Source: Lacimicrobium alkaliphilum
Lineage (GTDB): Bacteria; Pseudomonadota; Gammaproteobacteria; Enterobacterales; Alteromonadaceae
Reading direction: 5' to 3'
Assembly: GCF_001466725.1 (NCBI RefSeq)
Contig: NZ_CP013650.1
Location: 62,001 to 126,000 of the forward strand
Length of the DNA: 64,000 nucleotides
Made by a program: the position numbers and the translations under genes. Below, piece by piece: positions 7,203-59,765 of this stretch; the first letter of the stretch is position 1; each line of letters begins with the position of its first letter. The notes under the pieces were generated by a model. The model made no database searches. It worked only from the letters and a program-made list of their open reading frames with translations, and was not told the origin of the DNA.

Positions 7203-7260
7203 TCCTCGCATGCCAGGGGTCGTCCCCTTAAGGTATCTGGTGATTCAGAGTCGTCCCTGA
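7203..7260 (-). promoter_or_regulatory. Guanidine-II (mini-ykkC) riboswitch
   Basis: On the minus strand there are two hairpins. The upstream one (7245-7260) has a six-pair stem, TCAGGG with CTCTGA, closing the loop ACGA. The downstream one (7215-7228) has the stem AGGGG/CCCCT, also closing ACGA. They are 16 nt apart, and the second lies just above the GAGGAG ribosome site (7203-7208). Two stems with ACGR loops immediately before the start codon is the defining architecture of guanidine-II riboswitches, which favour translation when guanidinium is bound. Confidence 0.92.
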
Positions 7261-7290
7261 AGCACTGTGTTGATGCCGTGGATAAGACTA

Positions 7291-12379: not shown

Positions 12380-12483
12380 CTAAACGCCGCCACCAGCGGC
12401 AAAAAGTTGATGGCGCTTTTGTTGCGCCGTTTGCAAAAAATTGACAGCGAGTTTTTGTCCGGTTTGAGTGGCCTTGTTATGTT
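12380..12483 (-). other. attC site 14
   Basis: Plus-strand ends AAACGCCGCC and GGCCTTGTTAT, with an imperfect palindrome between. It is almost identical to attC 10, although the two cassettes carry unrelated genes. Confidence 0.9.
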
Positions 12484-14521: not shown

Positions 14522-14926
14522 TCACTTTAATCTGTACTCAATAACTGTTTTCAGATCCTGCTGAGGCTGATACTCGCCATTTTTCTTTGGGGGGAGATAT
14601 CTCCACTTTCTAAGCGCACTGGTAGCAGACTCTTCAAACATACCTTTAGGGCTTGAGTCTTGAACTTCAATATCAACTGGCGCTCCTGTGGCATCGACGT
14701 TGTAGGTCAGCAAGACCCAACCTTCTTTCCCACTACCAAGAGCGAGTTGTGGGTATGCAGGGGCTATCCGTATAACGGGTTCAGGGTACGCCTCAGCACC
14801 GACGATTGGTGCTTCCTTTGGAGGTTCAATAACTGTCTCTGAAGTTGATTGACACGCCGCCAACAGACAGGACAGGAAAAGAAATATTATTAGTCTCACT
14901 GACTTATCCTTTAGATAGATAGACAT
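14522..14926 (-). CDS. Integron cassette gene: TonB C-terminal domain lipoprotein
   Basis: 134 residues from the ATG at 14926. A lipoprotein signal (LSCLLAACQST) and a short proline-rich linker precede a TonB_C domain: APAYPQLALGSGKEGWVLLT, then ATSALRKWRYLPP. True TonB needs an N-terminal transmembrane helix to contact ExbB/ExbD; here that is replaced by a lipid anchor, as in several standalone TonB-C proteins. The insertion sequence ends 1 bp upstream of the start, so the native leader is gone. GGGAG in its terminal repeat now sits at ribosome-site distance. Confidence 0.8.
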   Translation of the reverse strand: MSIYLKDKSVRLIIFLFLSCLLAACQSTSETVIEPPKEAPIVGAEAYPEPVIRIAPAYPQLALGSGKEGWVLLTYNVDATGAPVDIEVQDSSPKGMFEESATSALRKWRYLPPKKNGEYQPQQDLKTVIEYRLK

Positions 14927-15027
14927 TATGACTCCCAGTGAAGGTGCTAGCCTCCGCATCATCGTGGGTTAGCAAAATACCAGAGCCATCATTAGTTTGT
15001 TCAAGACTAAATCATTTGGAGGCTAGC

Positions 15028-16182
15028 ATGAACAAACATAGCATGACTTTTATTGGTTTAGATACGCACAAAGACTTCCACGAAGTTGCGTATTGTGAGG
15101 ATGGTTTTGGCGTGGAGCCGATGCATTACGGGCAGATCCCCTCGAGTAAAGCCAGCCTCACCAAACTGCTTAAACAATTGCAGTCCAGGTACCCAAATGC
15201 CACTTTGCATGTGGTCTATGAGGCCGGTCCTTGTGGCTACTGGATTTACCGTCATATCACCAGCTTGGGTCATTGCTGTTATGTGGTGGCGCCATCACTT
15301 ATCCCCAAAAAGCCCGGAGAGCGGGTCAAGACGGACCGCCGGGACGCGTTGAAGCTGGTGAAGCTGCTCAAGTCACAGGATCTTACCCCGATTTATGTTC
15401 CCGAGCCGGAAGATGAAGCCATACGGGATTTATCCAGAGCACGGGAGTGTGCCATGAAGGATTTAAAGGACGCCAAGTACCAGCTTAAAGCCCTGTTACT
15501 GCGCAACAATATTCACTATGCAGGCACGGCCAATTGGTCACTCAAGCATCTTCGCTGGCTGACCGAGCTGGTGTTACCTCACCCCGCCCAGCAGATTGCC
15601 TTGCAGGAATACATCCAGACCATTAATGAACGCATTGCCCGTCTGGAGCGTCTTGATAATGAATTGACTCACCATGTTCACCGCTGGCGCTACTATCCGG
15701 TAGTGAAGGCCATTCAGGCGATGCGAGGAGTAAGATTACTGGTCGCGGTAGGCGTGGTGGCAGAGCTGGGTGATCTGACCCGCTTTGCCCACCCCAGACA
15801 ACTGATGGCGTATCTGGGACTGGTGCTCAGCGAACACTCATCGGGTGGTAAGCGCCATCTGGGTGCTATCACCAAATGCGGTAATAGCAGAGCCAGGCGA
15901 TTACTGATTGAGGGCGCTCACAGCTACCGTTATCCGGCCAACATCGGCACAGATATGCAGCTTCGTCAGGAGGGGTTACCCAAAGCCATTGTGGATATCG
16001 CCTGGAAAGCCCAGTTACGGCTATGTCGTCGCTATCAGCGCATGAGCAAGAAAGGCAAACATTACAACCTGATAGTGACAGCAATTGCACGGGAGATGGC
16101 CGCCTATATCTGGGCAATTGCCAAACAAGTGGTCCTGACCCCGGTCAATCCTAAACTGAGACTCAGTCGGGTACCGGCATGA
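15028..16182 (+). CDS. IS110-family DEDD transposase/recombinase (IS1111 group)
   Basis: 384 residues. The ATG at 15028 follows GGAGG; the frame is open back to 14938. The N-terminal RuvC-like domain shows FIGLDTHKDFHEVAY (first Asp), YEAGPCGYW (Glu) and KTDRRDALKL (Asp pair). The C-terminal Transposase_20 domain holds the conserved serine block (SEHSSGGKRHLGAITKCGNS). These enzymes use an RNA guide made from their own noncoding end to bring donor and target together. The frame is intact, so the element may be active. Confidence 0.93.
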   Translation: MNKHSMTFIGLDTHKDFHEVAYCEDGFGVEPMHYGQIPSSKASLTKLLKQLQSRYPNATLHVVYEAGPCGYWIYRHITSLGHCCYVVAPSLIPKKPGERVKTDRRDALKLVKLLKSQDLTPIYVPEPEDEAIRDLSRARECAMKDLKDAKYQLKALLLRNNIHYAGTANWSLKHLRWLTELVLPHPAQQIALQEYIQTINERIARLERLDNELTHHVHRWRYYPVVKAIQAMRGVRLLVAVGVVAELGDLTRFAHPRQLMAYLGLVLSEHSSGGKRHLGAITKCGNSRARRLLIEGAHSYRYPANIGTDMQLRQEGLPKAIVDIAWKAQLRLCRRYQRMSKKGKHYNLIVTAIAREMAAYIWAIAKQVVLTPVNPKLRLSRVPA

Positions 16183-16482
16183 CACACCCTGTTTTGAGCT
16201 ATTGCACTGTGAAGAGGCCGCGGAAGTGGCGCAACCTACGACGGCGTTAGGATGGCAATAAGACAAGCGCTTATTGACCCACGAACATAGAGTGATGAGA
16301 AGGTGCCACGGCGGAAAAAGTAAGGTCAGCTCTGCTTATTCATCGAATAAGTAACCTACGGATACCAGCATGACAACCGACGACATTACTGCCTCATCCG
16401 GTGTGATAGCTCAATTTAATTGAGAGAAACAGAACAAACTACGGGCCGAGAGAATGCCAGGGAGGAGTTCGTTTAAACTTGA
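16183..16482 (+). ncRNA. Probable bridge (seek) RNA region of the IS1111 element
   Basis: IS1111-group elements carry their guide RNA downstream of the transposase gene, and this 300-nt noncoding stretch fits. It contains small hairpins at 16335-16351 (CTTATTC-ATC-GAATAAG) and 16420-16434 (CTCAATT/AATTGAG). At 16243-16251 it reads GGCGTTAGG, the attC R' core, preceded by AACCTACG; a second AACCTACG occurs at ~16353. An attC-like guide agrees with the insertion point. RNA ends and loop pairing are inference. Confidence 0.6.
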
Positions 16483-16497
16483 CACTGGGAGTCATAC

Positions 16498-16600
16498 CAA
16501 CGCCGCCACCAGCGGCAAAAAATTGATGGCGCTTTTGTTGCGCCGTTTGCAAAAAAAGTGACAGCGAGTTTTTGTCCGATTTGAGTGGCCTTGTTATATG
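16498..16600 (-). other. attC site 10 (flanked by the IS)
   Basis: Plus-strand ends CCAACGCCGCC and GGCCTTGTTAT. It is nearly identical to attC 14. The insertion sequence adjoins its R' end, so the crossover point is displaced from the next cassette. Confidence 0.9.
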
Positions 16601-19214: not shown

Positions 19215-19324
19215 CTAACGCCGCAAGCAGCTGCGGCTTTGTAGTGGATTGTTTTGCGATAGCGTAGCGTTAAATCGCAAAACAAGGAACGCAAAAGCCG
19301 TCAGACTGCCTTGCTTTGTTACAT
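19215..19324 (-). other. attC site 5
   Basis: Plus-strand ends CTAACGCCGCAAGCAG and CTTGCTTTGTTAC, with a GTTTTGCGAT...ATCGCAAAAC arm pair at about 19250-19283. It closes the COQ7-like cassette. Confidence 0.88.
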
Positions 19325-22255: not shown

Positions 22256-23221
22256 ATGGCAAAGTCTCTTTTTCTTAAGTCCGTTGCCGAGCAGATGTAC
22301 GCCCGCCGTTATGCCAAGCGGACTATCGAAACCTATATCAAATGGATCAGCAGTTTTATTCATTTTCATCAGATGCGTCACCCCGTGCAGATGGGCGATA
22401 CAGAGGTGGAGCTGTATCTGAATCATCTGGTCAATGAGCTGGATGTGGCAGCAGGTACGCAGGCCGCTGCGCTCAATGCGCTGGTGTTTCTGTATAAGGA
22501 GGTGGTGAAGCAACCGCTGAGCCTGAAGCTGAATTTTGTGAAAAGTCAGCGTCAGCAAAAATTGCCCGTGGTAATAACACAACCGGAAATGCGCCAATTG
22601 CTGGCGCATATCCCGGCGCAACAGAAATTACCGGTGTCGTTGTTATATGCCAGTGGTCTGCGACTGATGGAGTCGGTGCGCCTGCGGGTGCAGGATATTG
22701 ATTTCGATTATAAGTCGGTGCGGGTCTGGAACGGCAAGGGCGGCAAGCACCGGGTAGTGACGTTGGCCAGTGAATTAATTGCGGATTTACGCCGCCAGAT
22801 CATGCTGGTGGAGCAGTATCTGCATGCGGATTTGGCTAACCCTCATTATGCCGGGGTATGGATGCCGCACCGGTTAAGGGTTAAGTATCCCCAGTCTAAA
22901 AACCAACTGGGCTGGCAGTATCTGTTCCCCAGTCGCCAGGTGTCGGTAGATCCCGAAACCGCCACAGTGCGTCGCCATCATATTGATGAAACCTCAGTCC
23001 GAAAGGCGGTTGTCAGGGCGGCCCGCCAGGCGGGTATTAAAAAACATGTTACACCGCACACCCTGCGGCACTCTTTTGCGACCCATTTATTGCAGTCGGG
23101 GGCGGATATCCGCACAGTGCAGGATCAGCTCGGCCACGCAGATCTGCGTACCACGCAAATTTATACCCATATTCTGCAGCGTGGAGGCCACGGGGTGGTC
23201 AGCCCGTTTTCGCATTTGTAA
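22256..23221 (+). CDS. intI: Integron integrase (IntI-type tyrosine recombinase)
   Basis: 321 residues. The catalytic set is complete: Arg136 (ASGLRLME), Lys164 (GGKHRV), His268 and Arg271 (HTLRH), His294 (LGHADL) and Tyr303 (TQIYTH). Between the Lys and His motifs is the IntI-specific insertion (YAGVWMPHRLRVKYPQSKN, then LGWQYLFPS), which separates IntI from XerC/D and phage integrases. It is divergent from the cassettes, the standard integron layout. The frame is intact, so the platform may be active. Confidence 0.96.
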   Translation: MAKSLFLKSVAEQMYARRYAKRTIETYIKWISSFIHFHQMRHPVQMGDTEVELYLNHLVNELDVAAGTQAAALNALVFLYKEVVKQPLSLKLNFVKSQRQQKLPVVITQPEMRQLLAHIPAQQKLPVSLLYASGLRLMESVRLRVQDIDFDYKSVRVWNGKGGKHRVVTLASELIADLRRQIMLVEQYLHADLANPHYAGVWMPHRLRVKYPQSKNQLGWQYLFPSRQVSVDPETATVRRHHIDETSVRKAVVRAARQAGIKKHVTPHTLRHSFATHLLQSGADIRTVQDQLGHADLRTTQIYTHILQRGGHGVVSPFSHL

Positions 23222-59667: not shown

Positions 59668-59697
59668 CGGCGGCAAGCCGCCAGTTTTTAATTTTTC
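59668..59697 (+). terminator. Hairpin and T-tract upstream of rpmE (leader attenuator or terminator)
   Basis: GGCGG-CAAG-CCGCC (59669-59682) is followed by AGTTTTTAATTTTT. It lies in the rpmE leader on the rpmE strand with no plus-strand gene upstream, so it may be an attenuator of the ribosomal protein leader type. Ribosomal protein L31 leaders have been described in gammaproteobacteria. Confidence 0.5.
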
Positions 59698-59765
59698 GTA
59701 TGGTGTTTGGTCAAGCCCGTTGTGTTTGGATCAAATAGCGGTACGGCCTGATGATGAGGTAACCC

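Follow-up and report, generated by a model that had tools for sequence, protein, structure and literature searches.

An attC-targeting group of IS1111 elements was reportedly described by Tetu & Holmes in 2008 and by Post & Hall in 2009. RNA-guided targeting of attC has been shown by experiment for two IS1111 elements, ISKpn4 and ISPst6 (in the part of PMC11187229 cited here). RNA-guided attC targeting is thus already known, and the insertion sequence (IS) in our window (the whole 64,000-nucleotide stretch of Lacimicrobium alkaliphilum DNA analysed) is a further element of that kind; a first-pass annotation of the window, which proposed such targeting, was right in kind and not new, because the mechanism is published (PMC11187229, same part). 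We put at roughly 0.88 the probability that this is an element of IS1111 type and that RNA from its 3′ noncoding region guides the DEDD recombinase.

ISKpn4, ISPst6 and ISPa25, as that portion of PMC11187229 describes them, resemble the window IS in inserting at one end of attC, in a noncoding region 3′ of the transposase gene and in a top-strand match that lies 5′ of the bottom-strand match. The target lobe here (84 nt) is close in length to the seekRNAs of ISKpn4 (82 nt) and ISPst6 (86 nt; PMC11187229, in part). The likeness to these three is by description; plasmid tblastn, blastn with two RNA regions and the literature yielded none of their sequences. The same source text gives 330–350 aa as the usual range for IS1111 transposases, a range and not a definition, and the window transposase (384 aa) falls outside it. 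The bridge RNA of IS110/IS1111 elements, typified by IS621, likewise carries its target guides in an internal loop, whereas the RNA here, in contrast to that of IS621, lies in the right end and has the guide order of IS1111 (sections of PMC11208160 cited). Among elements named by annotation, ISSso6 shares ~50% transposase identity with the window IS and ISEc45 ~43%, and our RNA model matches next to one copy of ISEc45 (26 bits). Among the papers listed by literature searches, none dealt with the marine clade of the window IS. The clade offers a natural data set of 97 copies (by one count) in which changes in the RNA guide accompany changes in the DNA target and relatives occupy new sites; the comparison agrees with the experiments on two attC-targeting elements, and makes testable why an 8-nt guide lands mostly in integron recombination sites.

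Borders and insertion site

Inverted repeats and the ends of a second genomic copy define an IS1111-type element of 1578 bp at 14921–16498 (Table 1). The span of 14928–16600 first assigned to it does contain an IS, but 14928 is inside the left end and 16600 is the end of the attC. As in the IS1111 family, the 13-bp inverted repeats (14928–14940 and 16483–16495) are subterminal, with short extensions of 7 and 3 bp; the 3-bp extension outside the right repeat we take to be the right border of the IS. For the left side, a 7-bp extension outside the repeat is stated for IS1111 elements in the cited part of PMC11187229. The transposase has the two domains expected of a family DEDD enzyme, scores 276.6 bits against NCBIfam NF033542 and is followed by the long noncoding region (16183–16498) that is a further family trait. 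If the joined ends of a circle form a promoter, CATTAT at 14924–14929 would supply its −10 half and TTGACA its −35 half; the 17-base spacing recurs in 46/46, a count that is no independent evidence because the search motif already required TTGAC and the subterminal inverted repeat. Rfam at its gathering cut-offs returned no family at the IS and two elsewhere in the window, a Guanidine-II riboswitch at 7215–7262 (−) and an L31 ribosomal protein leader at 59697–59760 (+).

Table 1. Positions of the element, its parts and its neighbours within the window
Feature	Position	Strand	Basis or remark
IS1111-type insertion sequence, 1578 bp	14921..16498	+	inverted repeats; ends equal in second copy, of like type in relatives
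Left end: 7-bp extension AGACATT + 13-bp subterminal inverted repeat ATGACTCCCAGTG	14921..14940	+	
DEDD transposase, 384 aa, PF01548 + PF02371	15028..16182	+	
Predicted guide RNA, ~225 nt, closed by outer stem	16192..16416	+	z −4.46; 34/54 pairs with two-sided changes; 0/500 shuffles reach observed values
Target lobe, 84 nt	16226..16309	+	helix 3 of consensus fold
Predicted guide T, CGGCGTTA	16242..16249	+	matches both targets in genome; covariation
Predicted guide B, ACATA, opposite side of same loop, towards left flank (AT/A)	16285..16289	+	one position covaries
Putative donor guide ATACCAG, identical to the right and left IS ends when joined, ATACC/AG	16362..16368	+	alignment, consensus fold; right-end base association P = 0.006
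Right end: TTGACA (candidate −35 half) + 13-bp subterminal inverted repeat CACTGGGAGTCAT + 3-bp extension ACC	16479..16498	+	
attC of interrupted junction; R′ AACGCC at 16499, R″ core GTTA at 16593–16596	16499..16600	−	
Downstream cassette gene, TonB C-terminal domain	14522..14926	−	ATG would fall within IS left end
Integron integrase gene	22271..23218	+	TIGR02249, 454.9 bits, above cut-off

The IS abuts the R′ end of an attC (~16499–16600), as the first-pass annotation had it, in a chromosomal integron whose cassettes lie on the − strand and whose integrase gene is at 22271–23218. The + strand junction reads ...GGGAGTCATACC/AACGCCGCC (the slash marks the insertion point throughout), which places insertion in the R′ core at GTT/A; without the IS, the empty attC would read GGCGGCGTT/ATCTATC. 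GGCGTTGGT, earlier quoted as attC sequence, is in fact GGCGTT of the attC joined to GGT of the IS right end. Two other attCs of the array are empty, one at 19217 with a longer match (CGGCGTTAG) and one at 12383 (CGGCGTTTA, CGGCGTT followed by T), so the expectation that the element can enter any cassette junction with this core was too broad; relatives at non-attC sites and the abundance of CGGCGTTA across the genome (below) tell against it as well. On the far side of the IS, an ATG supplied by the left end (14924–14926) is in frame with the TonB_C cassette gene and gives a longer − strand open frame; the native start codon is probably further inside.

The genome holds one further copy (G000:C1:3648721-3650297, equivalent to L003:4722-6298; 1577 bp), with the same ends and three differences; one is the loss of a single base, which disrupts the transposase reading frame close to codon 38. 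There is no attC at its site. Its target, CCGGCGTT/ATTCG, has CGGCGTT/AT in common with the window copy; the test of whether other copies lie at unrelated sequences thus gives a mixed answer, this one being outside attC but at the same CGGCGTT/A. The gene split by the second copy resembles thioredoxin in its 3′ part (Pfam E 1e-4, under the curated cut-offs). Read by eye, its frame runs on across the joined flanks, an observation relevant to the IS1111 trait of inserting without target duplication. The target is also a perfect short palindrome, CCGGCG-TTATT-CGCCGG.

RNA fold and guide–target covariation

We aligned 26 noncoding regions (62–100% transposase identity, picked by hand from those available). 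The window RNA fold beats 200/200 shuffles (z −4.46), and the consensus contains 54 pairs, 34 of them with two-sided changes. Of all cells, 96.2% pair in the consensus, a level that 0/500 shuffles reach and that drops to 28–39% when partners are slid. The architecture comprises an outer stem, the target lobe and a donor part. GGCGTTAGG is present at 16243–16251 in the 3′ noncoding region, as originally noted, and its proposed role as target guide agrees with the fold: in the internal loop of the conserved target lobe it lies with guide T on the 5′ side, opposite guide B on the 3′ side, and among related copies the variable bases of GGCGTTAGG change in step with the target. The exact match to the window target is 8 nt, CGGCGTTA, and the GG that follows is mismatched. 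A conserved RNA with looped guides that match the target is a feature shared with bridge and seek RNA systems. In the RNAalifold consensus, three pairs span the target loop; none of them has a two-sided change. The donor match ATACCAG sits in a multiloop, a placement that the cited part of PMC11208160 describes for many IS1111 elements. The covariance model finds 10/10 more distant loci (26–63 bits) and, in a further set of distant loci, 9/10, the tenth being masked there; it has no match at three plasmid loci with other IS110 transposases (L099–L101). Inserts occur within the RNA region of three loci, in the target loop of L116 and in the donor part of L035 and L054.

A recognisable right end is present in 103 of 121 transposase hits, and in 101 of these it is followed by 10 or more bases. 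The 20 hits left out are either broken or truncated, or else they carry different inverted repeats (L132, L134–L141). These 101 junctions represent 98 loci, L133 being included although it has AAC but no attC, and guides were parsed in 97, with the two-base parses of L048 and L062 and the shifted parse of L026 kept. AAC follows the right end in 99/101 junctions with recognisable ends, and T is the last base of the left flank in 93/94. At the four bases before GTT, guide T matches its target at 304/382 positions against 277.9 (sd 4.3) when permuted (P = 5e-5, n = 97; P = 1e-4 with one row per combination, n = 72), these and the following P values being optimistic because the copies are related. 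The match is exact at all four variable bases in only 36/97 copies. At the base immediately before GTT, a guide C accompanies a target C in 86/89, and a non-C guide a non-C target in 7/8 (P = 7e-8; exact base 5/8), two of the eight non-C guides sharing a genome. Between guide B and the left flank, one position covaries (54/83 versus 45.0, P = 0.0013) and position −2 does not (P = 0.20); nor do positions 2 and 3 of guide T after GTT covary with that flank (P = 0.97 and 0.48). An earlier set of 61 junctions was found in part through a pattern containing AAC; covariation there used the 46/61 found by protein, and the guide–target signal came from the Alteromonas group alone (P = 0.001, n = 20), the remaining copies giving none (P = 0.14, n = 21). 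The right-end base is associated with the donor match in the RNA (48 C/C, 36 C/T, 2 T/C and 11 T/T; P = 0.006), and the C/T class could pair as wobble.

On sequence comparison, then, the reading of GGCGTTAGG as a guide is well supported by the RNA fold, by guide–target covariation and by relatives at matching sites. The points against it are the exact four-base match in only 36/97, the missing covariation outside the Alteromonas group in the earlier set, at guide B position −2 and at guide T positions 2 and 3 after GTT, the lack of a matching guide at L137 and the three pairs drawn across the target loop.

Preference for attC

A distal R″ core (TTGTTA, 28–160 nt past the junction) accompanies 84/101 copies and 0/47 control AACGCC sites, all from the window's own genome (P = 1e-24); several of the 17 copies without it resemble attC by eye. 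Together with the AAC, this gives the fixed place in attC that characterizes the attC-targeting IS1111 elements, though 99/101 and 84/101 hold for recognisable ends only, because examined copies with other inverted repeats are not at attC. A hairpin score for attC was too crude (it puts 59/101 flanks at or above the tenth percentile of the control, and most of the 42 that fall short resemble attC by eye), and the R″ core count was used instead. By eye, seven sites are not attC: the second copy in our genome, L040, L087, L089, L133, L150 and L152. The second copy and L040 lie in short palindromes with GTT/A in the loop (by eye). Palindromes do not serve as a rule for non-attC sites, being seen by eye in 2/6 and not at L087, L089, L150 or L152.

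The genome contains 210 instances of CGGCGTTA, 100 on the forward and 110 on the reverse strand, against 214 of a control pattern; they include the guides inside both IS copies and the attC at 19217. The guide alone cannot give the attC bias, because it is 8 nt long and has 210 genomic matches, and the idea that it defines attC by itself fails on these sites. Something further has to contribute, either survivorship or recognition of the attC structure. Survivorship, to which we give odds a little short of even, would have a guide specific to ~8 nt and insertions elsewhere lost by selection; it competes as an account of the attC bias only, leaving the guide in place. The 210 sites and the existence of non-attC copies (by eye) suit it, yet many genes tolerate insertions while the distal core is present in 84/101 copies. 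We consider it unlikely that target choice is the product of guide and DNA structure, with the RNA supplying ~8 nt and the recombinase or RNA complex also preferring extruded or single-stranded attC; the palindromes at the second copy and at L040 are a weak hint of it.

Recognition of attC by the transposase protein alone, through sequence or hairpin and with the guide-like stretch as a by-product, would account for attC-like flanks in 84/101, above what an 8-nt match would give; we hold it very improbable, since guide and target covary, the second copy occupies a non-attC site with a guide match and relatives with different guides occupy different sites. More improbable still is arrival inside a cassette moved by the integron integrase. 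An IS adjoining the crossover would travel with the next cassette, but among 88 long-flank copies no two left flanks are >70% identical, and the genome's other copy is outside the integron. Least credible is a chance resemblance of GGCGTTAGG to attC, for although an 8-mer match found 210 times in the genome is weak by itself, the covariation, the conserved covarying fold (0/500 shuffles) and the attC enrichment speak against chance.

For the RNA-guided element, the most likely course is as follows, its transcription, pairing and chemistry, like the function of the donor part, being inferred. The IS ends would join as a circle, forming a promoter at the junction, and the donor part of the resulting RNA would recognise the joined ends. 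Guides T and B would pair with opposite strands of the target (guide T with CGGCGTTA), and the recombinase would then insert the IS at GTT/A, always in one orientation and two bases away from the point at which the integrase crosses over in the attC R′ core.

Relatives, other guides and spread

More distant relatives pair other guides with other targets. By eye, L104 (Paraburkholderia, 52% transposase identity) has guide CGGACT and target CCGGACT/A, L133 (56%) ACTGTT and ACTGTT/A, and L136 (48%) ACGGGCT and ACGGGCT/A. One element present repeatedly in a single genome (44–46%) has guide TGGGTT, with target CGGGTT/A at L140, at L141 and, beyond a partial duplication, at L134, and target CGGGCT/A at L138; L139 is masked. 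By eye, guide and target agree at six of seven bases in L135, and no guide matching the target was seen in L137. Element ends were not found at L132 or L103. Relatives at 45–49% identity (L047–L050, L052–L054 and L061–L063) are again in attC, with guides of type GGGCGTTA or CGGCGTTA. A tree of 31 rows leaves one versus two origins of attC targeting unsettled, a single clade not being rejected (p-AU 0.43).

The transposase is present in 27/295 genomes of the family at E 1e-160, 21/394 of the order at 1e-100 and 7/369 of the class at 1e-90, the window's own genome being counted each time. E. coli genomes give partial matches in 48 records, none covering 80%; among the matches listed, these are ISSso6. 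A clinical NDM-1 IncC plasmid of Klebsiella pneumoniae already carries one relative (74% transposase identity; L031, NZ_CP095763.1 28578-30133) in its class 1 integron, flanked by arr-3 and qacEdelta1; a relative of this type was found by megablast in 1 of 72,556 plasmid records. In another genome (G523), two IS copies (L107 and L131) occupy adjacent cassette junctions of one array, ~2.4 kb apart.
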